Below, one piece after another: positions 19,761 through 38,767 of a stretch of 64,000 nt of DNA. The translations under genes and the position numbers were made by a program. The notes under the pieces are model-generated. The model saw only the letters and a list, made by a program, of their open reading frames with translations. It did not search any database and was not told the DNA's origin. Numbering within the stretch: the first letter of the stretch is position 1; each line of letters starts with the position of its first letter. Source of the DNA: Arthrobacter gengyunqii (GTDB lineage: Bacteria; Actinomycetota; Actinomycetes; Actinomycetales; Micrococcaceae); NCBI RefSeq assembly GCF_023022985.1, contig NZ_CP095461.1:3348001-3412000 (forward strand), read 5' to 3'.

Positions 19761-19775
19761 ACTGGTACGTACAGT
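19761..19775 (+). promoter_or_regulatory. Catabolic-region operator, site A
   Basis: ACTGGTACGTACAGT lies 38 nt before the monooxygenase start. It is one of five near-identical 15-mers in the 19-39 kb region. Its right half TACAGT and the overlapping TATAGT could be a -10 element, so repressor binding would block the promoter. Confidence 0.7.
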
Positions 19776-19813
19776 ATAGTTCTTTTATTACGTCACCCAC
19801 GAGAGGTATACCG

Positions 19814-21001
19814 ATGTCGACGACGACAACGACCGCCCCCACAGCAAGCGAGCTCATAGCCCGCGCGGAAAAGCTGGTCCCGCTGTTGCGGGAGCGCGCA
19901 TCCGCGGCCGAGAACGTCCGACGGCAGCCCGATGAGACCATCGAGGATTTCAGTTCAGCCGGATTCTTCACGGCGATGGTCCCCGCCGAACACGGTGGCT
20001 CTGCACTGGGCCTCAGCGAGTTCGCCGACCTCGTCCGTGTCCTCTCGCGGGGCGATGCCTCCGCCGGCTGGATCGCCGCATTCCTCATCTCGCACTCGAC
20101 CCTCCTCTACCGCTACGGCGTGGAGGCACAGGATGAGTTCTTCGCGGACAAGCCGTACGGACTCACCGTCGCAGCTGCGGGCCCACCCGGAGCCGCAACC
20201 CCGGTGGAGGGCGGGTATACCGTCTCCGGCACCTGGCGCTTCGGCTCCGGTGTTCTCCACGCCGAGTGGGCCGCGCTCAATGCAATGTCCCCCGATGGCC
20301 CTCTCAGCGTTGTGGTGCCCGTCAGTGAGACCGAGATCGTCGACACCTGGCACGTCCCCGGAATGAAGGCCACGGGCTCCAACGACATCAAGGTGGAGGG
20401 ACTCTTTGTTCCGCGCCATCGCGCGGTTTCCTTCCCCGTGTACTCGTCCGAGCACAACGAGGGTGCGGCCCTGACTGAATACCCGCTCATCGGCTACCCC
20501 ATGAACCGCACGCTCAACCTCATCCATTCCGCCGTCGCCATCGGCACCGCCGACGCCGCCCTTGAGCTCTTCGCGGACGGGATCGGCAAGCGGGTCCGGA
20601 TGCAGACCCGGCAGAAGCAGATCGACGAGCCGATCACCCGCCAGACCTACGGCAAGGCATGGGACCTCGTCCAGGTCGCGGGTCTCCAGCTGCACGACGC
20701 GCTTGCGCACACCGACCGGGTTTACGGCAGGGAATCGGCCGGTCCCGCAACGCTCGCAGATCGTGCCCGCATCAATCTGGGGCTGACTGGATCCGGTCAG
20801 AAAGCTTTCCAGGCCGTCGACCTCGTGGTGCGGGCAGCCGGTGCCTCCATCTTCCGCACCGGGGACCCCCTGGAACGGATCGTCCGGGACACGCAGGTTA
20901 TGCGCAATCACGCCGCCGTCGACTTCGAGACCATGGCATCGGTCGCAGGCGGCGCGCTGCTCGGCGTTGGTATCGGCGACTACGCCGAGCCCATGTTCTA
21001 A
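19814..21001 (+). CDS. HsaA/HpaB-like flavin-dependent monooxygenase, type I copy 1
   Basis: A 395-residue protein with an acyl-CoA dehydrogenase fold but with group D monooxygenase features: PLLRERA near the start, VLSRGDASAGWIAAFLISHS near residue 80, SGTWRFGSG, VPGMKATGSND and the C-terminal GASIFRTGDPLERIVRDTQVMRNHA. Relatives use FADH2 supplied by a separate reductase to hydroxylate phenols, polycycles or indoles. The ATG follows GAGAGG. It is followed 41 nt later by an NTF2-like gene. The same gene pair is repeated at 28730-30614, with a monooxygenase of identical length. Substrate unknown. Confidence 0.86.
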   Translation: MSTTTTTAPTASELIARAEKLVPLLRERASAAENVRRQPDETIEDFSSAGFFTAMVPAEHGGSALGLSEFADLVRVLSRGDASAGWIAAFLISHSTLLYRYGVEAQDEFFADKPYGLTVAAAGPPGAATPVEGGYTVSGTWRFGSGVLHAEWAALNAMSPDGPLSVVVPVSETEIVDTWHVPGMKATGSNDIKVEGLFVPRHRAVSFPVYSSEHNEGAALTEYPLIGYPMNRTLNLIHSAVAIGTADAALELFADGIGKRVRMQTRQKQIDEPITRQTYGKAWDLVQVAGLQLHDALAHTDRVYGRESAGPATLADRARINLGLTGSGQKAFQAVDLVVRAAGASIFRTGDPLERIVRDTQVMRNHAAVDFETMASVAGGALLGVGIGDYAEPMF

Positions 21002-21042
21002 GTCGCTCCGACTGCCCACCACCTACTGAAAAGGAAGACCGC

Positions 21043-21696
21043 ATGACCGACATTGCTGCACTTGAACGCCGGATTTCCCGCACCGAGGCCTACATCGAGA
21101 TCTCGAACATCATGGGAAGGATTGAGTTCCTCCACTCCGCCTATGCAAACGAACCGATTGTGCCGTACTTCAGCACCCGGCCCGACACCGTAATCGAACT
21201 CCCGTTCGGCCGCTACACCGGTTCCGACGCCGCGCAGCGCTGCTTCGTCGGCGCTCTCGACGAAGGCCTGCCGCCGCGCGATCTCAGCGGTGAGTACGTT
21301 GAGCACCTCCTGTCCACGCCCGTCATCGAGGTTGCCGATGACCTCGAAACGGCGAAGGCCGCCTGGATCACGCCGGGCGCCGAGGCGCACCACCTCGGAT
21401 GGGTCGAGGGCAATCCCCTGCACGGGTTCTGGTACTGGGGCCGTTACCACCTGGTCTTCCGCAAGGAGGAGGGCGCCTGGAAGATCTGGAAGTACCGGAA
21501 CTCCCTCACGTTTGTTGCCGACTACTACAAGAGCTTCACGGACGGCAGCCTCCCCCGTCCCCCCGCCCCGATCGGCAACGGTGGACCGGACAGCGCTCCG
21601 CGATTCCAGGTCGAGTACACCCCGTCGTGGGATCCCAAGGAACTCGTGCACGCGCCCGAGCCCTATGCCACGTTCGTCGATGAGGACGAGTTCTAA
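21043..21696 (+). CDS. NTF2/SnoaL-like protein, copy 1
   Basis: A 217-residue protein with an NTF2-like domain: N-terminal helix, MGRIEFLHSAYANE, then the strand block AAWITPGAEAHHLGWVEGNPLHGFWYWGRYHLVFRKEEGAWKIWKYRNSLTF. The proline-rich C-terminal part is outside the fold. Such proteins act as small isomerases, lyases or dehydratases, or as partners of oxygenases. It is clearly paralogous to the protein at 28730, and both follow a type I monooxygenase gene. AAGGAAG precedes the ATG. Function is inferred only from fold and context. Confidence 0.8.
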   Translation: MTDIAALERRISRTEAYIEISNIMGRIEFLHSAYANEPIVPYFSTRPDTVIELPFGRYTGSDAAQRCFVGALDEGLPPRDLSGEYVEHLLSTPVIEVADDLETAKAAWITPGAEAHHLGWVEGNPLHGFWYWGRYHLVFRKEEGAWKIWKYRNSLTFVADYYKSFTDGSLPRPPAPIGNGGPDSAPRFQVEYTPSWDPKELVHAPEPYATFVDEDEF

Positions 21697-21723
21697 GCAC
21701 TCAGGAACAAAGCACGCAGGGAC

Positions 21724-21768
21724 AACGGAAAGCGGCCGGGTGATCGAATCACCCGGCCGCTTTCCGTT
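21724..21768. terminator. Bidirectional terminator
   Basis: Perfect 21-bp arms with a 3-nt loop lie between two convergent genes; the arms begin AACGGAAAGCGGCCGGG and the loop is CGA. The stem starts and ends in A/T-rich sequence, so it can stop transcription from both sides. Confidence 0.85.
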
Positions 21769-21775
21769 CTGCCGA

Positions 21776-22996
21776 TCAGCTAAGGCGTTCCAGCACGATC
21801 GCCATTCCCTGCCCGCCGCCCACGCACAGCGTGGCCATGCCAAGCGTCTTGTCCTCGGTCGACAGCCCGTTGATCAGTGTGCCGATGAGGCGGGTGCCTG
21901 TCGCACCGAACGGATGCCCGATGGCAATTGCCCCGCCGTGCGTGTTGAGCTGACGGTCCACATCAATCCCGAGCTCCCGTGCGGAAGCCACAACCTGGAC
22001 GGCGAATGCCTCGTTTATTTCGATGAGGTCGAGGTCAGGGATAGTCAGGCCGGCCCGACGCAGCGCCCGCCGCGACGATTCCACGGGCCCGAGCCCCATG
22101 ATCTCCGGCGACAGACCCGAGACAGCGGTCGAGACGATGCGCGCCAGTGGCTGCAGACCGTGCACCTTCGCGTACCGTCCGGAGACGACCACTGCGGCGG
22201 ATGCACCGTCGTTCAGCGGACAGGCGTTGCCTGCCGTGACCGTTCCGACGGGCGAGAACACGGGCTTGAGTTCGGCCAGTGCCTCCGCCGTGGTCCCCGG
22301 GCGGAGCGAATCGTCCTGGTCGAAGACCGATCCGTCCGGCCGTACCACGGGCACGATTTCACGCGCCAGGTAGCCGCTGGCCTGCGCTTCGGCCGCCAGA
22401 CGCTGCGAGCGCGCGGCAAAGGCGTCCTGTTCCGCGCGGCTGACTCCGGTCAGCCGCGCCACGTACTCCGCCGTGTGGCCCATTTGGATATAGGCGTCGG
22501 GCATTGCACCCTCGGCACGTGGGTCATGCCACGGCTCCCCCGACAGCATCGCCTGCGCGGTGCGTTCGGCGGCGGCGTCGAACGCGGCGTTGCCGGCCCC
22601 GGCCGGCGGGGCGGCGTGTGATGTCGACTCGGTGCCTCCGACGAGGAACGCGTCTCCCTCACCGGCCTTGATGGCGTGGAAGGCCATCCGGGTGGTTTGG
22701 ATCGAGGAGGCACAGAAGCGGTTCACAGTGGTGCCCGGCAGCGTGTCGTAGTTGAGCAGCGTCGCCACGACGCGGGCCATGTTGAAACCCTGCTCACCGT
22801 CAGGGGCCGCCGTGCCGAGCATCAGGTCGTCGACGTCGTCGATGGACAATCCTGGTACACGGTCGATGACGCCGGCGAAGACCTGGCGGGCCAGTTCATC
22901 GCCGCGCACATCTGCGAGGCCGCCCTTACGGGCGCGTCCGATGGCTGTACGGGCAACGGAGACAATGACGGCGTCATTGTCGGTGAGCATGGTCAT
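21776..22996 (-). CDS. Thiolase (acetyl-CoA acetyltransferase family)
   Basis: A 406-residue degradative thiolase. The acyl-accepting cysteine is C95 in NRFCASS, the histidine lies in GGAIAIGHPFGATG and the second cysteine in LCVGGGQGMA. It cleaves 3-ketoacyl-CoA with CoA. It is last in a tightly packed operon: its ATG overlaps the stop of the FAD monooxygenase as ATGA. With acetoacetyl-CoA synthetase two genes upstream, acetoacetyl-CoA is the most likely substrate, giving two acetyl-CoA. Confidence 0.92.
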   Translation of the reverse strand: MTMLTDNDAVIVSVARTAIGRARKGGLADVRGDELARQVFAGVIDRVPGLSIDDVDDLMLGTAAPDGEQGFNMARVVATLLNYDTLPGTTVNRFCASSIQTTRMAFHAIKAGEGDAFLVGGTESTSHAAPPAGAGNAAFDAAAERTAQAMLSGEPWHDPRAEGAMPDAYIQMGHTAEYVARLTGVSRAEQDAFAARSQRLAAEAQASGYLAREIVPVVRPDGSVFDQDDSLRPGTTAEALAELKPVFSPVGTVTAGNACPLNDGASAAVVVSGRYAKVHGLQPLARIVSTAVSGLSPEIMGLGPVESSRRALRRAGLTIPDLDLIEINEAFAVQVVASARELGIDVDRQLNTHGGAIAIGHPFGATGTRLIGTLINGLSTEDKTLGMATLCVGGGQGMAIVLERLS

Positions 22997-24570
22997 GCGG
23001 ATTCCCCCAGCTGGGTTGTTTCAAGGGCGGCCATGAGGTTAATGGCGTCGTCGACGGTCTTTGCGGAGGCGAACCCGTGGAAATCCGGACGGTAGATGAC
23101 GGCCACCGCCGAGTCGAAGACCTCCCCGTACCGACCGTCGACGTCGCTGCCGCTGTGGCGGTTGCGGGCCGCGGTATCGGCGGGCATGACCTCGATGACC
23201 TTGCAGGGGAATCCGGCGGGCCTGGCCGCGCGGATACGCTCCGCATCGTCCTCGCTCACCACGCGCCCGTCGACGAAGGCCACGAACTCACCCCAGGTAA
23301 TCCGGTCTGCGGCCGTCTCGCTGCCGTCGAGGCCGCGCAGCCGTCCCTGCACGCCGATTCGGCCGGCGACCGGATCGGACCCGGGCGCACCTCCGGGGAA
23401 GAAGCCCGGACCGAGGATCTCCGGGGGCATGGGAGGAAGGGCATTCCACGGGAACGGCCCGGCGCTGAGGAAGTGGGTGTCGCGCTCGGCGACCTTGGCG
23501 GGGTCGGTCTCGCAGATCATCCGCCCAAGTTCCAGCGACATCATCAGCGCATGCTGGACGTGTGCACCCCGCTCGCTCCCGTAAGTGTCGAGCAGGCCAA
23601 GCGGCGTGACTCCGCTCAGCACGTGGTCAATCTTCCACACGAGGTTCGCAGCATCCCGGACACCCGACACCATGCCGCGGCCGAAGAAGGGCGGCATCTG
23701 GTGCGCGGCATCGCCGGCGACGAAGACGCGCCCGCGGCTCCATTCGGTGACGCACCGCGCGTGGAACGTGTACATCGCCAGGCGCTCAAGATCCGCGTTC
23801 CCGGGGTTTACCCCCCAAGGCTCGACGAGTTCCCAGGCGTTGCCGGTGCTTGTGAATGCCGCAGCGTCCTCCCCCGGCATCAGCATGAATTCGAAGCGGC
23901 GGCGGCCCGGACCGCCTGAGACAACAGACGTGGGACGCAGCGGGTCGCAGATCTGGCCGTTCTCGGGTGTCCAAGCACGCTCGGCCATCTGGAGATCCAT
24001 CACCAGCCAGTCCGAGCTGAAGTCCAGATCAGTCATTGTCAGCCCGGCGAGTTCCCGCACGGCTGAGTTGGCGCCGTCGCATCCCACCACGAATGTTGCC
24101 CGGACCGTGGTCTTGCCGTCAGGTCCGTCAATGAACGCCGACACCCCCTCAGCGTCCTGGTCAAACCCGGTCAGAGCGGTCCCCCAGCGAATCTCGAGCC
24201 CTTCGGCCGCCTCCTGGTGCCTGCGCAGCGCGGCTTCGAGGTCCGGCTGGGCGAACATCGTGGATTCCGGCCAGCCCTGAGGCCCGTCAAGGGGTGCGGG
24301 GAAGGTCAGCAGCAGCTTCCGATCGGCAGTCAGCCAGTCATAGCTCAGGGCAGGCTCACTGAAGGTGGCCTGCTCCTCGGCGTCCAGGCCCACTCCGGCC
24401 AGGAAGCGGTTTACATCCGGATCGTAGTGGACGGCCCGGGGCAGAGAATACGGCTCGCGGTGCTGCTCAACGGCCAGCACCCGGTACCCGCGCTGTGCAA
24501 GGTAGAGCGAGGTCAGTTGCCCAACCACACCCTGCCCCACCACAAGCACATCGACATCGTTGTCGCTCAT
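22993..24570 (-). CDS. FAD-dependent aromatic monooxygenase (MhpA/PheA-like)
   Basis: A 525-residue group A flavoprotein hydroxylase. It has the N-terminal dinucleotide motif VVGQGVVGQLTSLYLAQRGY, the middle DG motif VVGCDGANSAVRELAG and the second FAD motif VFVAGDAAHQMPPFFGRGM. The C-terminal 120 residues form the thioredoxin-like tail seen in MhpA/PheA members. It should hydroxylate a phenolic ring using NAD(P)H and O2. It is ATGA-coupled both to acetoacetyl-CoA synthetase upstream and thiolase downstream, tying it to the same pathway. Confidence 0.9.
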   Translation of the reverse strand: MSDNDVDVLVVGQGVVGQLTSLYLAQRGYRVLAVEQHREPYSLPRAVHYDPDVNRFLAGVGLDAEEQATFSEPALSYDWLTADRKLLLTFPAPLDGPQGWPESTMFAQPDLEAALRRHQEAAEGLEIRWGTALTGFDQDAEGVSAFIDGPDGKTTVRATFVVGCDGANSAVRELAGLTMTDLDFSSDWLVMDLQMAERAWTPENGQICDPLRPTSVVSGGPGRRRFEFMLMPGEDAAAFTSTGNAWELVEPWGVNPGNADLERLAMYTFHARCVTEWSRGRVFVAGDAAHQMPPFFGRGMVSGVRDAANLVWKIDHVLSGVTPLGLLDTYGSERGAHVQHALMMSLELGRMICETDPAKVAERDTHFLSAGPFPWNALPPMPPEILGPGFFPGGAPGSDPVAGRIGVQGRLRGLDGSETAADRITWGEFVAFVDGRVVSEDDAERIRAARPAGFPCKVIEVMPADTAARNRHSGSDVDGRYGEVFDSAVAVIYRPDFHGFASAKTVDDAINLMAALETTQLGESA

Positions 24571-26522
24571 TTGGCTTTGATTCCATTCTCTTCGTTGAAC
24601 ACCCGGGCCCGCTGGACGAACCAGTCGACCGTCTCCGGGTTCTGCAGCGATCCGCGGTTGACCGCCTTGGCCTGGTCATGCCCCAGGAACACCTTTTTCA
24701 GGGGCACCTCGATCCGCTTACCGGAGTACGTGACGGGGATGCCCGGCGCAGCTTCGATTGCGTCGGGAACGTGCCGCGCCGTCGCCCGGGAACGGATGGC
24801 GGTACGGATCCGCGCCACCAGGTCGTCGCTGAGTTCGACGCCGTCGGCCAGTTCGACGAACAGCGGCATCCAGTACCGCCCGCCCGGCATTTCGATCCCC
24901 AGAACGACGCCGTTGTGCACCTCGTCCAGGGTCTGCAGCGCGGCATAGATCTCCGCGCTGCCCAGCCGCACGCCGTCGCGGTTGAGCGTCGCGTCGGATC
25001 TTCCATGCACCACCACGCCCCCGCGCGGGGTGCGGCTGATCCAGTCGCCGTGCGTCCAGACGGCGGGATCGGCCTCGAAGTACGCTGCGCGGTACTTGGC
25101 GCCATCCTCATCACCCCAGAAGCGGACGGGCATCGACGGCATCGGCCCGGTCAGCACGAGCTCGCCCACTTCGTCGTCGGCCGCCTCCCGGCCGTCCTCG
25201 GCGCGGACCTGGACGGGAGTTCCTAGCGTCGGACCCTGCAGTTCGCCGAGGTGCACGCGCTGCCAGGGGTTGCCTCCGATGAAACCGCTGCAGATATCGG
25301 TGCCGCCGGAATCACTCGAGAGATGAACATCGGCCTTGACCGCCGCGTGGACCCAGCGCCAGGTCGAGGGGGCGAGAACCGATCCCGTTGACATGATCGT
25401 GTCCAGGCCGGAGAGGTCGTATCGGTCCCCCGGACGCAGACCGGACTTCTCCACCAGGGCAAGATATGCAGCGCCGGTCGCGAGCATCGTCGCCTGCGTC
25501 TCCGCGACGAGGGCGAACTGTCGGTCAGCATCCGGCCACATGGACGCACCGGGGAAGGTAACCACTGACGCCCCGACGCTGAGCGTGTTCGGAAGGGTGT
25601 TCCACACCATCCAGGAGGTGTTCGCTGCGGTGAAGTAGCGATCGCCCGGACCGAGGTCGAACTGCAGCCCGATTCCCTTGGCGGATTCGAGCAGCATTCC
25701 GCCGTGTCCGTGCACGATTCCCTTCGGGACGCCGGTGGTTCCGGAGGAGAAGAGAACCCACAAGGGGTGGTCGAACGGGAGACGCCGGTAGTCCGCAGGT
25801 GCAGACGGCAAGGCATCGAGGTCGTCGAGGTACACGACGTCGGTCACCGTGGGCAGCGCGGAACCGACCGAGTCCACCAGAGGCCGGGAGTCGACCGCAC
25901 GGCCCTTGAACGTGTAACCGGAGAAACCCAGCAGCACGCGGGGCTCCAGGGGCGCCAGCCTGTCGACGATGGCAGGTTTGGCGAAGTCGGGGGAGCACAC
26001 CGACCAGATGGCGCCGAGGGATGCGGCCGCGAGCATCGCAGCGATCGCCTCGGGGATGTTCGGAAAGACACCCGCGACGACGTCGCCCTGCCCGACGCCG
26101 AGGCCGCGCAGGCGGGCGGCGAGGGCGGCGACACGATCACGCAGGCCGGCCCAGGTCCACTCGCTGCGCCCGTCCTCGGACAATCCGACGATCGCTACCT
26201 CGTCCGGCCGTGCATCCGCATGCCGCAGGACGTTCTCGGCATAGTTCAGCCGGGCCTCCGGGTACCAGACCGCACCGGGCATGCGGCGCTCCGAAAGGGC
26301 AGGTCCCACCAGCCCGTCACCAACCAGGCCCGCATGCTCACGTACGAGATCCCAGAAGGCCCCGGGCTCCTCGACCGACCACCGCCAGAAGGCAGGGTAG
26401 TCATCGAGGAGCACGCCGTGGCGTTCGAGGGCCAGCTCACGGAGGGCCCACAGTTGCGTGTTCCGGATGCTTTCCTCGGTGGGCGCCCAGGTGACTTCGG
26501 GCGCCTCAGACGTCTGAGTCAC
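24567..26522 (-). CDS. Acetoacetyl-CoA synthetase
   Basis: A 651-residue acyl-adenylating enzyme, the usual length for acetoacetyl-CoA synthetases. It has the phosphate loop FSSGTTGVPKGIVHGHGG, a DTIMSTGSVL segment and the C-terminal catalytic lysine region TYSGKRIEVPLKK. An N-terminal WAPTEESI...FWRWSVEEPGAFWDLV segment is typical of this subgroup. It converts acetoacetate, CoA and ATP to acetoacetyl-CoA. It sits between an FAH-family hydrolase, which can release acetoacetate, and a thiolase, overlapping each neighbour by 4 nt. Confidence 0.9.
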   Translation of the reverse strand: MTQTSEAPEVTWAPTEESIRNTQLWALRELALERHGVLLDDYPAFWRWSVEEPGAFWDLVREHAGLVGDGLVGPALSERRMPGAVWYPEARLNYAENVLRHADARPDEVAIVGLSEDGRSEWTWAGLRDRVAALAARLRGLGVGQGDVVAGVFPNIPEAIAAMLAAASLGAIWSVCSPDFAKPAIVDRLAPLEPRVLLGFSGYTFKGRAVDSRPLVDSVGSALPTVTDVVYLDDLDALPSAPADYRRLPFDHPLWVLFSSGTTGVPKGIVHGHGGMLLESAKGIGLQFDLGPGDRYFTAANTSWMVWNTLPNTLSVGASVVTFPGASMWPDADRQFALVAETQATMLATGAAYLALVEKSGLRPGDRYDLSGLDTIMSTGSVLAPSTWRWVHAAVKADVHLSSDSGGTDICSGFIGGNPWQRVHLGELQGPTLGTPVQVRAEDGREAADDEVGELVLTGPMPSMPVRFWGDEDGAKYRAAYFEADPAVWTHGDWISRTPRGGVVVHGRSDATLNRDGVRLGSAEIYAALQTLDEVHNGVVLGIEMPGGRYWMPLFVELADGVELSDDLVARIRTAIRSRATARHVPDAIEAAPGIPVTYSGKRIEVPLKKVFLGHDQAKAVNRGSLQNPETVDWFVQRARVFNEENGIKAK

Positions 26523-27370
26523 GACGCCGCGGTGAACTCGTTCGTGAACGAGCCGAAGCCGTCGAGGGTGCTGGTGAGGCGATAGCCCGGCCGCATCAGG
26601 ATCCCCCGCGAGAGTCCCACGCCCGCAGGCGTGCCCGTGAAGATGATGTCCCCGGGCAGCAGCGTCACGATCTGCGAGAGCCGGTGGATGCTCTCGTCAA
26701 TCGGAAAGAACAGCTGATCCGTGTCGCCGTCCTGAAGGGTGATCGTCTCTTCGCCCGGGCGCTCGAGCACCGCGTGGAACGAGATGGAGTCACGGTTCGG
26801 GAATTCGTCCGGTGTGACCACGTACGGTCCAAACGGTCCGAAATTCGGGAACGATTTGCCCATCGAGAACTGCGGCACGGGGGGACGGCGCTGTACCGTG
26901 CGCTCCGAGTAATCCTGGCCGACGGCGATGCCGGCCACGTGCTGCCACGCATCGGCCTTCCCGATCCGGTGACCTTCCTTACCGATAACCACGACAATCT
27001 CGGTTTCGTAATCGACGTCGTCGCTCGGTAGTTCGACCTGCACGTTGGGCGCTGCGAGGCTGGAGCGGAACTTCGTGAAAACAATCAGCTCCTCGGGTGC
27101 CGGGATGTTGGCCTCGGCGGCGTGGTCCTTGTAGTTCACGCCGATGGCAAGCACCTGCGGTGGCCTCGGGACCGGGATGCCGAGATCAGCCGACTCGAAG
27201 GGCGCACCAGCAGGCAGGGTGGCCTCGGCCGCCCAGGCGGAGAAGTCGCTCCAGCGCTCGTAGACATCCATCGGGTCAGGGCCGAAAGCACCGTCGGAGG
27301 CTTTGGCTATGTCGACTGCTCCCCCCTCGGTCACGAGGGAGGCACGGCCGTTCAGGTTGGCAATACGCAT
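26519..27370 (-). CDS. Fumarylacetoacetate hydrolase family protein
   Basis: A 283-residue FAH-family hydrolase. It has VLAIGVNYKDHAAEA, the metal-binding acidic pair in DYETEIVVVIGKEG, GIAVGQDYSER, FSMGKSFPNFGPFGPYVV, and the C-terminal LLPGDIIFTGTPAGVG. The family hydrolyses C-C bonds of acylpyruvates and fumarylacetoacetate after aromatic ring cleavage. It lies 3 nt after the VOC dioxygenase-like gene and overlaps acetoacetyl-CoA synthetase by ATGA. Acetoacetate release is therefore a reasonable prediction, though the true substrate may be an analogue. Confidence 0.9.
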   Translation of the reverse strand: MRIANLNGRASLVTEGGAVDIAKASDGAFGPDPMDVYERWSDFSAWAAEATLPAGAPFESADLGIPVPRPPQVLAIGVNYKDHAAEANIPAPEELIVFTKFRSSLAAPNVQVELPSDDVDYETEIVVVIGKEGHRIGKADAWQHVAGIAVGQDYSERTVQRRPPVPQFSMGKSFPNFGPFGPYVVTPDEFPNRDSISFHAVLERPGEETITLQDGDTDQLFFPIDESIHRLSQIVTLLPGDIIFTGTPAGVGLSRGILMRPGYRLTSTLDGFGSFTNEFTAAS

Positions 27371-27373
27371 GTG

Positions 27374-28063: not shown

Positions 28064-28110
28064 CATTGTTCCTTTACTCGGCGGCTGCGCCGCAGCCGAT
28101 TCTTCAATTG

Positions 28111-28151
28111 TTCTAAACCGGTCAGTTTTTGTTCTGGACCGGCAGGTTTTC
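28111..28151. promoter_or_regulatory. Tandem 20-bp operator-like repeats before the VOC operon
   Basis: GTTCTAAACCGGTCAGTTTT and GTTCTGGACCGGCAGGTTTT (15 of 20 positions identical) start 21 bp apart, two helical turns. They lie in the 101-bp gap before the VOC gene. A small GC-rich palindrome (28083-28099) sits between them and the start codon. The spacing suggests side-by-side binding of a regulator. Confidence 0.45.
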
Positions 28152-28164
28152 TGTGGGGACGGCC

Positions 28165-28695: not shown

Positions 28696-28710
28696 ACTGT
28701 ACGGTGTAGT
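28696..28710 (-). promoter_or_regulatory. Catabolic-region operator, site B
   Basis: On the minus strand ACTACACCGTACAGT, 12 of 15 matches to ACTGGTCSGTACAGT. It abuts the flavin reductase start, so binding would block its promoter. It is the weakest of the five sites. Confidence 0.55.
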
Positions 28711-29386: not shown

Positions 29387-29426
29387 CATGCCCTTTCGTG
29401 ACGGAGGGATGGAGTGGCGATATGGA

Positions 29427-30614: not shown

Positions 30615-30683
30615 GACGGGAACCTTTTCTTGGTGACGGGACATGGACGACGGCGCGGTGAAGGGTACTGCTCGAGAATGGGT

Positions 30684-32039
30684 CTACGGCCGCGGCGGGG
30701 CACCGGGCGGGGGCGGCGCCGGGGAGCTGAGGGCTGCCATCATCGGGAACGGCGCGAGCCCGAACAGGTCCCGGCCGTTGATCTCGGCCATCGGATCGAT
30801 CCGGAAGGCCCCATGCGTCGCCAGGACGTGAATCTCCCGCACCGCGCGCTGGAGCGGGTTCGAGAGCGCAACCGCCGACGATCCCAGAGCGAGGAGGAGT
30901 CCGTCCACCGTTTGAAGGCACTGGTGGATCAGGTGGACGAGATCCATCGTGATCTCGGGTTCTTCCGACGGCAGATAGTCCTCCCCCGCGAGCGCCCGCC
31001 GATCGGCCTCGTCCATGTGCCTGGCGAGGACCGCGTCCGCCGCATTGATGACCGCACGCGCTTTGCCGGCGACCATCTGGATCGAAGCCATTTCCGACAT
31101 GGTCGCGTAGGGCAGATTGAACGGGGCACGCTTCGCGGCCTGCGCCAGGAACGAGTCAAGCGCCCCCTGCGCGATCCCGACGGCCAACGCGGCGAACGCG
31201 CCGCTGCTGCCGATCATCATCCCGAACGCGCCGTGCTTGAAACCCAACCCCGAATAGGCGCCGCGAAGGGCATCACTCATACGCGGAAGGTCAGCGGTGT
31301 GGACGACGCGGTAGTCGGGAACAAAGATCTCCTCATCGGCCCGGACACTGTTCGAGTTCGTCGCTTGAAGCCCCATGACGTGCCAGTCGTCCACGATCGC
31401 GTACTGATCTCGGGACAGGACCCCCATTGCACGTCGCCGCTCGCCGCTTGCCGGGTCGTCGTACTCGAACCCTACCGAGCCCCAGGCAGCGTGCTTGCTG
31501 CCGCTGCCGAACGACCACTTTCCCTTCACCTGATAGCCGCCGGCGACCTTGCGGCCGTCGCCGACTTTCGGAGCGAAGACGGTTGCACCGAACACAAGCG
31601 GACCGACCCATTCGTCGATTCCCGCAAATACTTCGTCGCGGACCCTCGCATCGAATCCCAGGATGTTCCGGGCAGCGCTCGAAACAATCACCAACCAGCC
31701 GGCTGCCGCATCGCCCTGACCGAGTGTTCGCACCACCTCCGCCGTATCGCGGGCACCGAATGCGTAGCCGCCCAGCTCCGTGGGGATGGTGACCCTGAAG
31801 GCACCGACGCGGTTCACGGCCTCAAGCGTGGCAGGAGTGAGTTCACCGAGCGCTTCCCCCTCGGCTGCCTGTTCGCGCAGCAGCGGCAGGAGCTGGACAA
31901 TCTCGTCCCGCATTCGGCGGCCCTCATCACTCAGGTACGGCGATTCGGGAAACTTCGCCCTGATGGCTGGAAGCCCGTCCGGCAGGATCGGCTCTTTGGC
32001 GGGGACGCCGGCAGGCGGCATTGTGTGTGATGTTGTCAT
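30684..32039 (-). CDS. Flavin-dependent monooxygenase, type II copy 1
   Basis: A 451-residue acyl-CoA dehydrogenase-fold protein of the monooxygenase branch. It has an extended N-terminus, RVGAFRVTIPTELGGYAFGARDTAEVVRTLGQGDAAAGW, GKWSFGSGSKHAAW, DDWHVMGLQATNSNSV and the C-terminal SSAVALSNPLQRAVREIHVLATHGAF. It is closer to the protein at 34489 than to the type I pair. The C-terminus is proline-rich (APPPPGAPPRP). ATG 32039 is the first start that leaves a family-like protein; the longer open frame upstream runs into the neighbouring NTF2-like gene. Confidence 0.84.
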   Translation of the reverse strand: MTTSHTMPPAGVPAKEPILPDGLPAIRAKFPESPYLSDEGRRMRDEIVQLLPLLREQAAEGEALGELTPATLEAVNRVGAFRVTIPTELGGYAFGARDTAEVVRTLGQGDAAAGWLVIVSSAARNILGFDARVRDEVFAGIDEWVGPLVFGATVFAPKVGDGRKVAGGYQVKGKWSFGSGSKHAAWGSVGFEYDDPASGERRRAMGVLSRDQYAIVDDWHVMGLQATNSNSVRADEEIFVPDYRVVHTADLPRMSDALRGAYSGLGFKHGAFGMMIGSSGAFAALAVGIAQGALDSFLAQAAKRAPFNLPYATMSEMASIQMVAGKARAVINAADAVLARHMDEADRRALAGEDYLPSEEPEITMDLVHLIHQCLQTVDGLLLALGSSAVALSNPLQRAVREIHVLATHGAFRIDPMAEINGRDLFGLAPFPMMAALSSPAPPPPGAPPRP

Positions 32040-32136
32040 GGAGGGATCAGTTCTCTTCCTTGAGGTTTCCGTGATCAGACGTGCCGGCGTCCACCGCAGC
32101 AGTTCCGTCAGCATCGGTGTGACGTTTCGCCAACGG

Positions 32137-32658
32137 TCAGTCGCCCAGCGGGTTCTGGCCGGGGACCGCCTTGCGGAAGGTGCTCCAGTGCTCGGCGAGT
32201 TTGCCGTTGTGCACGCGGAACACAGTGAGGATGTTCCACTCGTACGTCCCTCCCGGGACAACGGGATCCGGCACGACCTCGCGCATCATGAGGCAGGCGA
32301 CCTCACCGTCGAGAATGACACCCACCACGGGCGGCGGAACAACGCCGGTGGCCGGGACGTGGCGGAAGTGCTCGATGAGGTTTTCGAGCCCGTTGCCGGG
32401 CGCGTTCGGATCGTGCTGGACATAGTCTTCGGCGGCGTACCTGGTCATCACCTCGACAACCTGCTCCTGCACCTTGCCGTCACGGACCATGCGGGCCATG
32501 TCGGCTTCGAACTCGATGAGCAGCCGCTTGACCGCGGTGCGCTCAGGCGAAGAATCGGCGGCGACCGCAGACTTGAACTCCTCGTTATCGAGCCAGTTCT
32601 GATAGATCGCGGGATCGCTGATCTCAGCGATCCCATTGATGATGGCGAATCCAGGCAT
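32137..32658 (-). CDS. NTF2-like protein, SnoaL type
   Basis: A 173-residue NTF2-like protein of a different subgroup from the two longer ones: YAAEDYVQHDPNAPGNGLENLIEHF, the central CLMMREVVPDPVVPGGTYEWNILTVFRVHNGKLAEHWSTFR. The HNGKLAEHW motif is typical of SnoaL-like polyketide cyclase/isomerase relatives. ATG 32658 follows GAGAGG. A perfect 9-bp inverted repeat lies in the promoter region. It probably shares a transcript with the type II monooxygenase 97 nt downstream. Confidence 0.82.
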   Translation of the reverse strand: MPGFAIINGIAEISDPAIYQNWLDNEEFKSAVAADSSPERTAVKRLLIEFEADMARMVRDGKVQEQVVEVMTRYAAEDYVQHDPNAPGNGLENLIEHFRHVPATGVVPPPVVGVILDGEVACLMMREVVPDPVVPGGTYEWNILTVFRVHNGKLAEHWSTFRKAVPGQNPLGD

Positions 32659-32991
32659 GATGCGGGTCCTCTCTGCGGCTGTCGACGTCGCGCCGCGAGT
32701 GGGCGACATTATCGAAACGTCAGCGTTTCGATCAGCTCGAGCGTCACACTACTGCCGCTCCACACGGAGCGCAACCCCCATCACCTTTCGCAGCCCGTTC
32801 CTGACGCAGGATGTGGGCGTGGAGACCCGCACAACTCGGGGGGGGTGGGAGTGGTGGGATCCGGACGGTGAAGGCATCGCCGAGTTCGGGGGCGCTGTGG
32901 GTTCGAAGATGCCCACGGATATGTGGAAGCACGGTTGAAAAACGCACACCTCCGGCAGGCGTGGGCGACGCCGGGGCGGGAGTGTGAAGTA
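32659..32991. other. Intergenic region, 333 bp
   Basis: No gene is seen between the NTF2-like start and the TetR stop. The part nearest the NTF2-like gene holds the inverted repeat at 32711-32732. The rest has short open frames on both strands with no family resemblance, plus a G-run (GGGGGGGTGGG near 32837). Nothing else stands out. Confidence 0.5.
32711..32732. promoter_or_regulatory. Perfect inverted repeat, likely TetR operator
   Basis: ATCGAAACG and CGTTTCGAT flank TCAG, 53 nt before the NTF2-like start. The symmetry and position suit an operator, most simply for the TetR gene just upstream at 32992. It differs from the five-site motif, implying a second regulator. Confidence 0.58.
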
Positions 32992-33588
32992 TCAGCGGTG
33001 CGAGAGCACCGGGACCAGAATCGTGTCGACGAAGCCGACCAGGTACTCGCGGTCCGGAAACGTTCCTTCAGCCAGGTGTTTGGCGAGCGGGATGGACAGG
33101 AACACATGATGGCAATAGCGCCGGACGGACGCGTCGACGGAGATTTCCCGCCGTGCGACGGCGCGGTCGATGGCCCGGTCGAGCGGGGAACCTGCAGGAG
33201 CCGAGAGCTGCTCACGCATCGTTTCCGCGAGCGCCTCGTCGCGCATCGATGCGTGGGCGAGGGCCGCGAGGAGAGTCATCTCCGACTCGGCCACCTGGGC
33301 GATCTGCTCCATGACGGCGACCAGGTCGCCGCGCAGCGTGCCGGTGTCGAGATCGGACGGCTCCGCCAGCTGGGCGTGCGAACGCAGGGCGGCCATGACC
33401 AGCCCCGGCTTGCCGTGCCACTGACGATAAATCGTCGCCGTGCTGCATCTGGCGCGTTTCGCCACGGCGGGCATGGCCAGGCCCTCATAACCGACCTCCT
33501 CGAGGAGGCCCAGGGTCTCGGCGAGGATCTCTGCCTCGCGGTGCGGCGAGAGCCGGCTGTGCCGCGGCCGTTCAGCGGGACTATTCAC
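32992..33588 (-). CDS. TetR-family regulator
   Basis: A 198-residue regulator. The N-terminal HTH is seen as REAEILAETLGLLEEVGYEGLAMPAVAKRARCSTATIYRQWHGK; the C-terminal helical domain carries SVRRYCHHVFLSIPLAKHL. It lies upstream of the NTF2-like/type II monooxygenase genes on the same strand. The inverted repeat at 32711 is its best candidate target. It is distinct in sequence from the TetR protein at 33614. Confidence 0.87.
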   Translation of the reverse strand: MNSPAERPRHSRLSPHREAEILAETLGLLEEVGYEGLAMPAVAKRARCSTATIYRQWHGKPGLVMAALRSHAQLAEPSDLDTGTLRGDLVAVMEQIAQVAESEMTLLAALAHASMRDEALAETMREQLSAPAGSPLDRAIDRAVARREISVDASVRRYCHHVFLSIPLAKHLAEGTFPDREYLVGFVDTILVPVLSHR

Positions 33589-33613: not shown

Positions 33614-34312
33614 TCAGCCCAGCGCCGGGCCCCAGGGGTAGTCGTAGTCGGGTTTCAGCACCAAGTCCTGCTCCCCCGCAATTGGACGCAGCCCGCGCAG
33701 GAAGACGCGCACAATGTAGCCCACATGAGCTTCGAGCAGCTCGCCGGAGACGGCGAAGTCCGAGATCAGTGCGTCGAACTCGATGCCGGAAACCGTCATC
33801 CGCAGGAGCATTGAGGCGTGTGCCTCCGGCCGATCCACTTCGAAGCCGTGCTCGGAGCCATAGGCAACGAGCAGCTGGGCGATGATGCTGATGATGTCCG
33901 AGACATCAGGCATCGCAAGGGTAGTGATAACCGACTGAATCTCGCGCCGACGGTTGTGCTCAGCGATCAGCACACGGAAGTAGGCGATCGCCTGCGCGCC
34001 CGTGCCAGCCTTGCTCGCCGCAACCAGCGCGTCGACCAGCCGATCCTCAGCGGACCCCTCCGCTGATCCTTCGCGCTGCCGAAGCCCACGCAACCGCTCC
34101 CCGAGCTCCATGCTGCCGTGCTGCAGAACAGCCTTGAAGAGCTCGAGCTTGTCCTCGTAATACGCGTAGACCGTCGTCTTGGACACTCCGGCCCGAGCAG
34201 CCACCGCATCCATGGACGTGCCGTCATACCCGTTGACCAGCAACAGTTCGACAGCGGCATCGAGCACCGCGTCGCGCTTGCTGCGCCCGCCGCTTCGTTT
34301 TGCCCGTGGCAT
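33614..34312 (-). CDS. TetR-family regulator, candidate master repressor of the catabolic region
   Basis: A 232-residue regulator with a basic N-terminus (PRAKRSGGRSKRD) and HTH GTSMDAVAARAGVSKTTVYAYYEDK. The C-terminal domain matches the TetR_C types with a VISDFAVSGELLEAHVGYIVRVFLRGL helix. It is divergent from the type II monooxygenase at 34489, and two copies of the regional 15-mer lie in the shared intergenic space, one facing each gene. This makes it the best candidate for the protein binding all five sites, including its own promoter. ATG 34312 follows GAGGAG. Confidence 0.87.
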   Translation of the reverse strand: MPRAKRSGGRSKRDAVLDAAVELLLVNGYDGTSMDAVAARAGVSKTTVYAYYEDKLELFKAVLQHGSMELGERLRGLRQREGSAEGSAEDRLVDALVAASKAGTGAQAIAYFRVLIAEHNRRREIQSVITTLAMPDVSDIISIIAQLLVAYGSEHGFEVDRPEAHASMLLRMTVSGIEFDALISDFAVSGELLEAHVGYIVRVFLRGLRPIAGEQDLVLKPDYDYPWGPALG

Positions 34313-34402: not shown

Positions 34403-34417
34403 GCTGGACCGACCAGT
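34403..34417 (-). promoter_or_regulatory. Catabolic-region operator, site D
   Basis: Minus-strand ACTGGTCGGTCCAGC, 13 of 15 matches to ACTGGTCSGTACAGT. It faces the TetR gene at 33614, 91 nt before its start, and would mediate autoregulation. Confidence 0.6.
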
Positions 34418-34446
34418 ACGGAAAGTTTCGATGGACAAACTCTCAA

Positions 34447-34461
34447 ACTGGTCCGTACAGT
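34447..34461 (+). promoter_or_regulatory. Catabolic-region operator, site C
   Basis: ACTGGTCCGTACAGT lies 27 nt before the type II monooxygenase start. The overlapping TACAAT could serve as a -10 hexamer. It is 17 of 20 identical to site A over the extended motif. Confidence 0.7.
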
Positions 34462-34488
34462 ACAATCCAGCCGACAGACGGAGATGAC

Positions 34489-35820
34489 ATGACTGACACG
34501 ATCCCCCAGCCGCCCAACGAACTGAGCCAGGGCCTCCCCCCAGGACCTCCGCCGGAGCGCTCGAGCCCCCTGGATGCGCCGGCCTCAAGATATCTCACCG
34601 CTGAGGGGAAGCGGCTCGCAGCCGGGGTACGCGCCCTCCAGCACCGCATTCGGGAGCTCGCCCCTGAGTCTGAACGCCGTGGCCGGCTCAGCACAGAGAT
34701 TGTCGAGGCCTTCACCGAACTTGGCCTCTACCGCGCCTGCGCCCCCATTGAGTACGGCGGCTACGCTCTGGGCGCTCGTGACATTGCGGAGATCGCGAGG
34801 GCGCTTGGACGAGGTGACGCCGCGGCAAGTTGGACCTTTTTTGTCGGCACCAGCCTTCGGATGGTCAGCACCTTCCCCAAACCCTTGGTGGACGAGCTCT
34901 ACAGCCGCCAGCAGGGCCACGTAGGCCCGCTGGCCGCCGGGGGGTCCACATTCGCTGCCGTGACAGGCAAGGCGACCAGGACGGAAGGAGGGTGGAACGT
35001 CGAGGGTAAGTGGACCTATGTATCGGGAAACCATGACGCCGCCTGGCTCTTCGGCGGCGCCGCATGGGTCGACGGAAACCGCAGCGGCCATGCGCTCTTC
35101 ATGATGGATCCGGCCGATATCCAGCCGCTCGATGACTGGCACGTGGCCGGAATGATGGCGTCCGACTCCAACTCCATCATCACCACCGCGCCGATGTTCG
35201 TCCCCGATCATCGCTTCATCGACATGGCAGAGCTCCCGGTGCACATGGACAGCGCGGCTGGACGGTTCGCGGGCCTTGCCTATGAGGCGAAGACGCGGGC
35301 ATCCATGATGACCGCCACTGTATTGAACATGGCCACCCTGGTCGGAATGGCAGAGGGCGCCCTCGAGGTATTCCAGCAGCTCGCACCCAAGCGAAAGCCG
35401 TTCAGCCCGCCGTATGACACGATCGCCGAGATGGCATCGAGCCAGGTGGCAGCCGGCAAGGCAAAGGCGCTCATCGGTGTTGCGAGCGCGACCGTGCTCC
35501 AGTATGCGGACGAGATCGACCATCTGGCGGTTCGCGGCGAAGACTACACCGGGGACGAGGAAGCACAGGGCTGTACTGACCTCGCCTTCGCCGGACAGCT
35601 TGCAAAGGACGCGATCGACCTCCTGCTGCGTATCCTGGGCTCGTCGGGCATGTCGCTGTCCAGCCCGCTCCAGCGTTACTCGCGCGACGCCGGCGTCATA
35701 CTCTCCCACGGCGCAATGCGCCTGGAATCGCTTGCGGAGATCAGTGGCCGACGCCTCCTCGGACAGCCCCCGTTCAAGATGTTCGCCGGCGGCCTGCAGG
35801 ACAAGAGTGCACAGAAGTAA
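34489..35820 (+). CDS. Flavin-dependent monooxygenase, type II copy 2
   Basis: A 443-residue acyl-CoA dehydrogenase-fold monooxygenase paralogous to the protein at 30684: APIEYGGYALGARDIAEIARALGRGDAAASW, GKWTYVSGNHDAAW, DDWHVAGMMASDSNSI, and SSGMSLSSPLQRYSRDAGVILSHGAM. Family members accept reduced flavin from a partner reductase. It is transcribed away from the TetR gene under operator site C and stands alone before a terminator. GGAG precedes ATG 34489; the frame open further upstream crosses the operators and is not coding. Confidence 0.85.
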   Translation: MTDTIPQPPNELSQGLPPGPPPERSSPLDAPASRYLTAEGKRLAAGVRALQHRIRELAPESERRGRLSTEIVEAFTELGLYRACAPIEYGGYALGARDIAEIARALGRGDAAASWTFFVGTSLRMVSTFPKPLVDELYSRQQGHVGPLAAGGSTFAAVTGKATRTEGGWNVEGKWTYVSGNHDAAWLFGGAAWVDGNRSGHALFMMDPADIQPLDDWHVAGMMASDSNSIITTAPMFVPDHRFIDMAELPVHMDSAAGRFAGLAYEAKTRASMMTATVLNMATLVGMAEGALEVFQQLAPKRKPFSPPYDTIAEMASSQVAAGKAKALIGVASATVLQYADEIDHLAVRGEDYTGDEEAQGCTDLAFAGQLAKDAIDLLLRILGSSGMSLSSPLQRYSRDAGVILSHGAMRLESLAEISGRRLLGQPPFKMFAGGLQDKSAQK

Positions 35821-35837
35821 CCGGCACAACAAATGAT

Positions 35838-35871
35838 GATCTCGGGTGGAGCTTTCGCTCCACCCGAGATC
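35838..35871. terminator. Bidirectional terminator
   Basis: 15-bp arms GATCTCGGGTGGAGC with loop TTTC lie between the convergent monooxygenase and ABC ATPase genes. There is no long T-tract on either side. Confidence 0.75.
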
Positions 35872-35895
35872 GCCCGGCCTCCCGCTGTGTACCGC

Positions 35896-36672
35896 TCAGG
35901 ACTCCAGGACGCCCTCTTGGACGGAGGCTCCCGTGATCCACCCGATGACGCTTTCCTTGTCGACTGCGCGTGTCGCGATATCTGCCACCTTGCGCCCGCG
36001 GTTGAGGACCAGGGTGCGATCGGACACGGCGAAGGCGAGGGGAAGGTTATGCGTGACTACGACGATCGAGGTGCCGCGCGCAGCGAGGGCCGTAATGAGT
36101 TCCTCGACGAGTTCGGTCTGCTCGTGTCCAAGCGCGGCCGTCGGCTCATCCATGAGGAGGATGCCCTGCTCGGGCAAGCGGGCGCTTGCCCGAGCAATCG
36201 CGATTACCTGGCGCTGTCCACCGGAAAGCATCTCCACGGGGCGGGTCACCGGCGCCGTCCGGATGCCCAACTCGTCGAGTTCGCGCTCCGATTCACGCCG
36301 CATCGCCTTGTGGTCGAGAAAACCGAACCACCCGAGAGGCCCGCGCATGAGCTGCTCCCGCCCCAGGGTAAGGTTCCCGGCGATGTCCATCGCCTCCACC
36401 AGGGCGAGATCCTGGTACACCATCTGGACACCGGCGCCGGAAGCATCCCTCGGCGACTTGAAATCCACCGGACGCCCGTGCACGAGGATCTGCCCCGAAC
36501 TGGGGCTATGGGCGCCCGACATGACCTTTAGCAGCGTCGACTTGCCGGCACCGTTATCGCCCAGCAGCGCAACCACCTCGCCTGGACGGACGGTCAGGGA
36601 CACCCGCTCCAGAGCGCGGGCATATCCGTAGTGGACAGAGATGTCCTTCAGTTCCAGTGCGGCGTCGCTCAT
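35896..36672 (-). CDS. Sugar-type ABC importer ATPase (single domain)
   Basis: A 258-residue ATPase: Walker A GDNGAGKST (residues 39-47), signature LSGGQRQ, Walker B ILLMDEPTAALG, switch His in VVTHN. It belongs to the CUT2/RbsA-like group, but carries one nucleotide domain instead of the two seen in RbsA, so it must dimerise. Its ATG overlaps the permease stop as ATGA. The three genes (binding protein, permease, ATPase) form one import operon under operator site E. Confidence 0.9.
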   Translation of the reverse strand: MSDAALELKDISVHYGYARALERVSLTVRPGEVVALLGDNGAGKSTLLKVMSGAHSPSSGQILVHGRPVDFKSPRDASGAGVQMVYQDLALVEAMDIAGNLTLGREQLMRGPLGWFGFLDHKAMRRESERELDELGIRTAPVTRPVEMLSGGQRQVIAIARASARLPEQGILLMDEPTAALGHEQTELVEELITALAARGTSIVVVTHNLPLAFAVSDRTLVLNRGRKVADIATRAVDKESVIGWITGASVQEGVLES

Positions 36673-37715
36673 CGTGTCCCTCTTTTCGCGCCGTCGTCGC
36701 CGCTGGCGAGAAGGAGCTTTGACGTTGTGTTTGTCGTCCACATGTTGAGGCCGAGACCGCCGACCAGCAGCACACCCGTCACCACCGAAGACCAGTCCGC
36801 CGGCACCTTCGCCAGCAGCAGTCCGGCAGAGATCGTCGCCACCACGATCACACCGAGCCCGACTCGGGGGAGACTCCCCCGCCCGCCGACGAACGGCACC
36901 CCGGCAAGCGCAACAGCTGTCATCGCGGTGAAGACGGTGCCCACGCTGGCGCTAGGGACAGCGGTCGTGATGTAAGCCGCGGTCACGATTCCCCCGAGGG
37001 CTGCGCACAGACCCGAGATCGCGAAGCCAAGGATGCGGTACCAGTTAACCGCGATGCCGACGCGTCGGGCCGCCTCGGCGCTGCCGCCGACGGCCAGCAG
37101 CCGCGTCCCCCCGCGGGTGAACTTGAGGAACACCGTGAGGATGACGAAGAGGACCACCGCTATGTAAACCGGTGCGGGAATGCCGAAGTACGTCCGCGTC
37201 CCCATGAACACCAGCTGGGTGAGCCCCGAGATGTTGTAGCTGCCGGCGATCAGGAGCGACGCTCCGCTGAGCACGCTGAGCATGGCGATGGTGACGATGA
37301 GGGGGTTGAACCCCCGAAGTACGACGACGGCGTTGACGACACCCACCAGGAGCCCCATCAGCAAGCCGCACATGATCGCCAGCCCCACCGGCAACCCCTC
37401 CTGAAGGAGGCGTCCGGTGACGACACCGGCCAGCGCGGCCGTGCCAGGCACCGAGAGGTCCAGCACGCCCGTCATGATCCCGACGGCGACACCCGCGGCG
37501 AAGATGCTCGCGATTGCTGCCGCGTTCAAGATCGAGATACCGGTGGGGAGGGTGAGGAAGTACGGTGCCCCCCAGAACGCGAAGACGATGACGATCGCGA
37601 TGAAGAGCGCAAGGAGGCCCTGGTCACGGATCAGGAGCAGCCCGCGGATCTTCCACGGCAGGGCGTTGTTCGGTGAGATCTGACTCACCGTTTCAGCCCG
37701 GGTAACCAGCGCCAT
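36669..37715 (-). CDS. ABC importer permease (RbsC-like)
   Basis: A 348-residue membrane protein of the BPD_transp_2 family with about nine hydrophobic helices. Family landmarks are the GVLDLSVPGTAALAGVVTGRLL stretch and FTRGGTRLLAVGGSAEAARRVGIAVNWYRI loop that contacts the ATPase. One permease gene suggests a homodimeric pore. It starts 1 nt after the stop of the binding-protein gene. Presence in the catabolic region and the shared operator suggest it imports the substrate of that pathway. Confidence 0.9.
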   Translation of the reverse strand: MALVTRAETVSQISPNNALPWKIRGLLLIRDQGLLALFIAIVIVFAFWGAPYFLTLPTGISILNAAAIASIFAAGVAVGIMTGVLDLSVPGTAALAGVVTGRLLQEGLPVGLAIMCGLLMGLLVGVVNAVVVLRGFNPLIVTIAMLSVLSGASLLIAGSYNISGLTQLVFMGTRTYFGIPAPVYIAVVLFVILTVFLKFTRGGTRLLAVGGSAEAARRVGIAVNWYRILGFAISGLCAALGGIVTAAYITTAVPSASVGTVFTAMTAVALAGVPFVGGRGSLPRVGLGVIVVATISAGLLLAKVPADWSSVVTGVLLVGGLGLNMWTTNTTSKLLLASGDDGAKRGTR

Positions 37716-37716
37716 A

Positions 37717-38688
37717 TTAGTTACCGCCCGTAGCCTTCACCGGAGTCTCGATGATCCCACCCAGGGAGGTGGGGTCGGAGATCATACGGATAAGGTCTGC
37801 TCCGGCCTCGCCAACGGCACTGGAGTAGTCCCAGCTGACGACAGAGGTAATGTCCCCGGCCTCCAGTGCGGCCACGGCCGCGTCTCCGCCGCCGCCGGCC
37901 ACGATGCAGGCCGGAGTCTTGTTGGCTGCCTTGAAGGCACCCGCCGCGCCCAGCGCGGTCTCGTCGCTCGCGGCAATGATGACGTTCGCATCAGGGTTGG
38001 CGATGAGCAGCTGCGAGACGGTGGTCTGTGCACTCGCAATGTCCGCGGCCTCGCCGGTCGCGGCGATGGGGACGTCCGGGGCTCCGGCTGCAAAGGAGTC
38101 CTCGATGGCACCGATGACCTGCTCCGTGCCGCCCGCGGCATCAGGCGGCATCAGGAACAGCGCCTCGCGTCCTTCACCGTCAACGGCGCATTTCGCTGCA
38201 GTGTCACCGATCATGGTCCCGTACTTCAAGAAGTCCGGCTCGTCGAATGCGATCCCCGGCTGAGGACCCTCCAATCCGACCGACATGGGTGGACCCTCCA
38301 CGACTGCGGGGATCTTCGCCGCCTGCAGCGTCGCGAGGCTTTGAGCGGCGGTTTCAGGCGCCACGGGCATGATCCACGCGCCCACGATGCTGTGCGTGTC
38401 GATGGCCTGCTGGATCTGCTGGGCCTGCTTCACCGCGTCGAAGTTCGCGTCCTGGATGGTGACGGTGTACCCCTCACCCTCGAAGTACTCGACCACGCCG
38501 TCGGCCAGCGCCGCGACGACGTCGATCTGGGAGGACGGCGTGAAGAAGGCGATTTCTCCCTTCGACTCCGCGCCGGCGGAACCGGCGGGCTTGGAAACTG
38601 CCTCCCCGGATGCGGCACATCCGGGGAGGGTCAACAGGCTCGCCGCGAGTGCGGCGCCTGCGACTGTGAGGGCGCGAGTATTCTTCAT
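37717..38688 (-). CDS. Periplasmic-binding-protein-1-like ABC substrate-binding lipoprotein
   Basis: A 323-residue lipoprotein with signal peptide and lipobox LPGC (Cys24). The mature protein has the ribose-binding-protein type fold: GEIAFFTPSSQIDVVAALADGV, IVGAWIMPVAPETAAQSLATLQAAKIPAVVEG, ANVIIAASDETALGAAGAFKAA. It delivers ligand to the adjacent permease. AAGGAG precedes ATG 38688. Most members bind sugars, but some bind other polar or aromatic compounds; here an aromatic or glycosidic ligand is possible. Operator site E lies 65 nt upstream. Confidence 0.9.
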   Translation of the reverse strand: MKNTRALTVAGAALAASLLTLPGCAASGEAVSKPAGSAGAESKGEIAFFTPSSQIDVVAALADGVVEYFEGEGYTVTIQDANFDAVKQAQQIQQAIDTHSIVGAWIMPVAPETAAQSLATLQAAKIPAVVEGPPMSVGLEGPQPGIAFDEPDFLKYGTMIGDTAAKCAVDGEGREALFLMPPDAAGGTEQVIGAIEDSFAAGAPDVPIAATGEAADIASAQTTVSQLLIANPDANVIIAASDETALGAAGAFKAANKTPACIVAGGGGDAAVAALEAGDITSVVSWDYSSAVGEAGADLIRMISDPTSLGGIIETPVKATGGN

Positions 38689-38752
38689 TGAAACTCCTTG
38701 AGCAGGGGGGCAGCATTGCCAGCGAAAGACACCAGACGTTGGCGGTTTCTGC

Positions 38753-38767
38753 ACTGTACCGACCAGT
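38753..38767 (-). promoter_or_regulatory. Catabolic-region operator, site E
   Basis: Minus-strand ACTGGTCGGTACAGT, a full match to the consensus. It lies upstream of the ABC importer operon and includes a TACAGT -10-like hexamer on the coding strand. Confidence 0.7.

Follow-up and report, generated by a model that had tools for sequence, protein, structure and literature searches.

Predicted operators of a candidate TetR-family repressor across a putative aromatic catabolic gene cluster in Arthrobacter gengyunqii

Pfam and NCBIfam scans of the open reading frames in the window (the whole stretch of DNA analysed, 64,000 nucleotides) revealed four HsaA-like oxygenase components (MO1 to MO4), a flavin reductase and an MhpA-like hydroxylase, together with VOC dioxygenase-like, FAH-type hydrolase, acetoacetate-CoA ligase, thiolase and SnoaL-like proteins and an importer. 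Judging from these protein families, the cluster of this soil bacterium likely oxidizes an aromatic compound and cleaves its ring, ultimately yielding acetoacetate and acetyl-CoA. MO1, an HsaA-like oxygenase component of a two-component flavin monooxygenase (19814..21001, plus strand), is followed by a presumed transcription unit on the minus strand (20998..28695), which comprises the genes for the flavin reductase, the VOC dioxygenase-like protein, the FAH-type hydrolase, the acetoacetate-CoA ligase, the MhpA-like hydroxylase and the thiolase as well as an unknown gene. The flavin reductase probably starts at GTG 28665 rather than at ATG 28695, because a Shine-Dalgarno-like GAGGAGG was seen in the site alignment. 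None of the four oxygenases reaches the HsaA equivalog cut-off of NCBIfam NF045629 (450 bits), all being far below it with 217.9 (MO1), 224.9 (MO2), 150.1 (MO3) and 123 bits (MO4).

Further along the minus strand lie two adjacent TetR-family genes, which we call TetR1 (33614..34312) and TetR2 (32992..33588). The TetR_N domain of TetR1 was matched with an E value of 4.1e-15 (PF00440, 55.7 bits against a cut-off of 24), placing the protein in the TetR family, and TetR2 was likewise assigned by the Pfam scan. Downstream of TetR2, genes for a SnoaL-like protein, MO3, MO2 and a second SnoaL-like protein (28730..32709, minus strand) form the rest of this unit, their co-transcription with TetR2 being presumed from gene order and strand. 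Three relatives (G007, G023 and G039) carry between MO2 and MO3 a transporter gene that is absent from the window (30645-30683), with a frame of about 550 residues that matches Pfam MFS_1 in the G007 copy, and a gap of similar size was seen at this place in G011. Divergent from TetR1, the plus strand encodes MO4 (34489..35820) and a 232-residue protein (35833..36531) for which the Pfam scan gave no family; relatives of the latter occur in the distant loci L080, L082, L088, L099 and L132, each time with a permease gene nearby. The importer genes on the minus strand specify a permease (36669..37715, BPD_transp_2) and, from ATG 38688, a substrate-binding protein (37717..38688, Peripla_BP_4) that shares 69-95% identity with its counterparts in seven relatives. 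The open reading frames scanned around the importer (36669-38688) included no recognisable ABC ATPase, and this component may be encoded elsewhere.

A sequence-only reading of this DNA had pointed to five copies of an operator-like 15-mer, each upstream of a pathway gene or operon, and had proposed that they define a regulon. All five were confirmed at the positions given there, and each precedes one of the five presumed transcription units that span the cluster. Predicted operator A (19761..19775, plus strand) matches the pattern without mismatch and overlaps the likely MO1 promoter; B (28696..28710, minus) stands before the flavin reductase unit; C (34403..34417, minus) precedes TetR1, where autoregulation is presumed; D (34447..34461, plus) lies at the likely MO4 promoter; and E (38753..38767, minus) is found before the importer genes. 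Read in the direction of the gene, the sites consist of an ACTGGT-like half (ACTACA in B) followed by a TACAGT-like half, giving the imperfect working palindrome ACTGKWCNGWMCAGT.

When up to three mismatches to ACTGGTMSGTACAGT were allowed, the window contained 12 matches; 100 shuffled sequences averaged 1.92 and did not exceed 5. A genome-wide scan, which the sequence-only reading had suggested as a check, bore out the exact form alone: the complete genome (3.69 Mb) contains three copies of ACTGGTNSGTACAGT without mismatch, each of them inside the window (sites A, D and E), whereas at up to two mismatches the 24 genomic matches are at background level, the reversed control giving 36. The weaker sites B, which differs from ACTGGTNSGTACAGT by more than two mismatches, and C therefore do not stand out in such a scan and needed other evidence; they were accepted because they are conserved in the genus and were picked by an independent matrix. 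The degenerate form ACTGNNCNGNNCAGT was found at seven places in the genome, D and E among them, against one for its control. Outside the cluster, these searches of the organism's own genome gave background or weak places alone; the proposed regulon is supported within the cluster.

The matrix, a symmetric one of 25 bp, was built from 39 sites in 17 non-Arthrobacter loci (described below) without any sequence from the window. Its five best places in the 64-kb window are exactly the five sites, with scores of 26.4 (B), 25.8 (A), 25.2 (D), 23.5 (E) and 17.7 (C), and the next independent place, overlaps of the five aside, scores 9.6. In 40 Markov windows the best score averaged 8.9 and did not exceed 16.4, so that C, the weakest of the five, is barely above the chance ceiling, yet it is kept in seven of eight genomes. 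The place that scores 9.6, at 28112, was rejected, since this stretch is present in the window's genome and missing from seven relatives. A sixth pattern match at 24611-24625 was not counted either: it lies inside the acetoacetate-CoA ligase coding gene and outside the 14 best matrix places, although it is present at two mismatches in all eight genomes.

Comparison with the cluster in seven Arthrobacter relatives, making eight genomes with that of the window, supported the operator reading, as the imperfect palindrome is kept throughout, with site C retained in six of the seven relatives. The 15 letters of site A are unchanged in seven genomes, and in G023 the site is a one-mismatch palindrome; the core of B is identical in all eight; C is recognisable in seven and degenerate or lost in G023; D is present in all eight with some letters changed; and the core of E is identical in seven, with a variant in G023. 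MO1 itself was found in G007, G011 and G023 with 95, 95 and 78% identity, respectively, and the site stands in front of it in all three. In ungapped alignments, invariant core columns numbered 15 of 15 for A (five genomes), B (eight genomes) and E (seven genomes, G023 left out) and 12 of 15 for C (seven genomes) and D (eight genomes), against 32 (A), 24 (B), 25 (C), 4 (D) and 32 (E) of 50 flanking columns, where the ungapped counts are lowered by indels. The flanks of A and E are themselves fairly conserved (32 of 50 each), which counts against the repressor model. Exact ACTGKWCNGWMCAGT occurs in eight of 29 genomes from the genus, seven of which carry the cluster, and is missing from the other 21, among them G023, which has the cluster with variant sites only. 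The exact match in G013 was taken as unrelated: it stands before an aldehyde dehydrogenase gene, inside a longer palindrome around ACTGGTCAGACCAGT (L069, 1498-1521).

The suggestion that TACAGT serves as a -10 element holds for A, B, D and E and fails for the site at 34403 (C), which lacks this hexamer. The last six letters of A, B, D and E in the gene direction are TACAGT in the compared genomes, the one exception seen being TTCAGT at site A of G023. At D (34447), TGGACA is located 17 or 18 bases upstream of TACAGT in seven of eight genomes, and TTGCGC lies 17 bases upstream at both the reductase promoter (B) and the importer promoter (E) in six of eight; nearly all -35 candidates other than TGGACA match just two or three of the six consensus letters. 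Around the 39 distant sites, TTGAC was found 19 times at -32 to -5 relative to the centre, where random stretches of the same loci gave a mean of 1.09 and a maximum of 5 in 300 draws. By sequence alone, palindromic operators overlap the promoters that they would regulate, weakly so at C. Such a position on core promoter elements fits a repressor, and because TACAGT occupies the -10 position at four of the five sites, occlusion of the promoter is the likely mode of repression.

Which protein would read these sites was then a matter of the two TetR genes. The sequence-only reading had named TetR1 on the ground that two sites flank the divergent promoters of TetR1 and MO4. This reason is not sufficient, as TetR2 begins 25 bp after the end of TetR1 and proximity alone cannot name the binder; the choice of TetR1 over TetR2 instead relies on the co-occurrence of the motif with TetR1 homologues, which supports the named protein. 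A scan of a genome collection (84,980 species) for relatives of TetR1 gave 51 loci, including ones from Pseudolysinimonas, Nonomuraea, Streptomyces, Herbiconiux, Trebonia, Agrobacterium vitis and an Acidobacteria MAG. Such genes are rare: TetR1-profile matches at E 1e-30 were found in two of 297 genomes of an order sample and one of 396 genomes of a phylum sample, the window's genome counted in each, and none of 72,556 plasmid records had a match at E 1e-20. The distant set consists of 17 non-Arthrobacter loci (292.8 kb, after removal of L084 and L085, which come from the species of L083), and 28 weaker loci (484.5 kb), among them L103 with 31% identity and no site, served as controls. In the 17 loci, which were found through TetR1 so that the comparison is conditioned on it, 12, 39 and 66 sites were detected at up to 0, 1 and 2 mismatches, as opposed to 0, 2 and 15 in the controls; 60 permuted palindromes gave a mean of 0.00 in the same 17 loci without mismatch and 0.23 (maximum 4) at up to one. 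In 12 of the 17 loci, versus three of the 28 controls, the TetR1 homologue is preceded by a site no more than 300 bp away, and 15 of the 17 contain HsaA-like monooxygenase genes. Among 24 short loci centred on weak TetR1 matches in the genus and the order, two have a site. Operator and regulator gene thus co-occur across genomes, and the motif is found with TetR1-family genes in Streptomyces, Nonomuraea, Agrobacterium vitis and the Acidobacteria MAG.

The association is incomplete. In five of the 17 loci the 300 bp preceding the TetR1 homologue contain no site, and in three none occurs within 1.5 kb. In L080 from Pseudolysinimonas, the closest relative outside the genus, the TetR1 promoter is without a site, and this locus carries a second TetR1-like gene. 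L132, a homologue with 34% identity that is not among the 17, likewise has no site at its TetR promoter when two mismatches are allowed, but has one, at one mismatch, near the gene for the 232-residue protein. The three controls with an upstream site (L108, L109 and L111) are all TetR genes of Mesorhizobium whose DNA-binding ends are similar, and related palindromes were seen upstream of these genes near 9880-9940; the Mesorhizobium protein is possibly a sister regulator with a related specificity.

The alternative that the sites are read by TetR2 (32992-33588), acting by itself or in a heterodimer with TetR1, draws on its position directly after TetR1 and on its retention in all seven Arthrobacter relatives examined and in Pseudolysinimonas L080. 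Against it, a match to TetR2 at E 1e-12 was found in just one of the 17 distant loci (short contigs in some cases), and most of the loci in which it has homologues elsewhere are not accompanied by the motif. With the TetR1 loci trimmed to about the width of the TetR2 loci, a site at up to two mismatches was found within 1.5 kb in 14 of 17 TetR1-homologue loci versus one of 23 TetR2-homologue loci, leaving 22 of the latter without the motif, and at up to one mismatch in 11 of 17 versus none of 23; the TetR2 loci come from 13 other genomes, 21 of the 23 belong to one genus (g95), and the homologues in them are distant (E 1e-31 to 1e-42). L131 is likewise without the motif. We therefore regard a role of TetR2 as the reader as improbable. 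A palindrome by itself does not name its reader, and another regulator, near or far, might be considered, for example the product of the MarR gene beside site E (38844-39329); this gene did not turn up in the stretches analysed from six of the seven relatives that keep the sites, whereas the motif accompanies homologues of TetR1 even in other phyla, which makes such a reader very improbable. That the 15-mers are chance matches or mere promoter sequence without a dedicated regulator is scarcely credible, for although TACAGT resembles a -10 element and genome matches at two mismatches are at background, the matrix built elsewhere picks exactly the five sites, and the palindrome, which takes in both halves of the site, is retained in distantly related genera.

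Beyond the 15 bp by which they were selected, the distant sites carry another repeat (T 0.71 at -10, G 0.77 at -9). These outer repeats, with half-sites in 5-bp phase, are clear in site A and partial in the other sites, and they hint at a 25-bp operator made of four half-sites, raising the possibility that two dimers occupy each extended site. In the QacR type of TetR operator, two dimers sit on one extended site. A broader proposal, which we put forward tentatively and would not bet on, is that TetR1 belongs to a widespread, undescribed lineage whose members bind as two dimers to ACTGNACTGTACSGTACAGTNCAGT (25 bp, four half-sites in 5-bp phase) and control HsaA-like monooxygenase clusters in several phyla.

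Taken together, the sites, their conservation, their promoter-like placement and their association with TetR1-type genes lead us to conclude that the 15-mers are, with high probability, operators of TetR1, through which the repressor would occlude five promoters until released by an inducer from the pathway; TetR1 binding, repression, induction and the boundaries of the operons are the parts of this model that we infer. Without inducer, a TetR1 dimer, or perhaps two on the extended 25-bp site, would cover the core promoters of all five units and block RNA polymerase, the right half of the operator being the likely -10 element itself in four of them. A substrate or intermediate of the pathway would then bind TetR1 and release it from all sites at once, switching on uptake through site E, the four HsaA-like monooxygenases and the flavin reductase through sites A, B, C and D, and the lower pathway through site B, while site C would provide autoregulation of TetR1.

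TetR1 and its sites very likely represent a new regulator-operator pair with control of a familiar kind, which leaves the general picture of TetR control unchanged. An operator and its probable reader can now be named for a group of uncharacterised catabolic clusters, and the pair offers a route to the members of the regulon, the borders of the pathway and, by induction tests, the substrate. Once the inducer is known, TetR1 could also become a part for biosensors.

No account of the operator sequence or of the cluster was found among the matches listed from the open-licence papers searched. Among the matches listed, the closest solved sequence to TetR1 is PDB 8wrf ("Probable transcriptional regulator"; TetR1 residues 11-207, E 4.2e-14), while most of the PDB matches are confined to the N-terminal part. 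"Repressor of mexJK operon" is the name given at the source to some TetR1 relatives, which also have the Pfam domain PF14246; in contrast, TetR1 itself gave no PF14246 match at E 1e-3, and it adjoins catabolic genes, with no efflux pump recognised among the window's open reading frames scanned. The presence of HsaA-like monooxygenases and a flavin reductase near a TetR-family gene recalls the KstR/HsaA steroid regulon, from which the cluster differs in that all of its oxygenases fall far short of the HsaA cut-off. It is TetR2, not TetR1, that weakly matches KstR structures (E 2.5e-4), KstR being absent for TetR1 among the 60 of 112 PDB matches listed, and the KstR operator is a different palindrome from the cluster sites. 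The arrangement that matches best among the systems we came across is that of MbdR from Azoarcus sp. CIB, whose structure (4uds) is also among the sequence matches of TetR1, over residues 10-65 only (E 6.7e-6). In the published account, MbdR is a TetR-family repressor of the 3-methylbenzoate pathway, which is anaerobic, and binds several palindromic operators placed over -10 or -35 elements or start sites, its own promoter included, with 3-methylbenzoyl-CoA as the inducer (PMC4424350). The two systems share a TetR-family gene within an aromatic cluster and palindromic operators over the promoters of the cluster, which are predicted in our case, and they differ in the operator itself, ATACN10GTAT for MbdR as opposed to the palindrome given above for TetR1.
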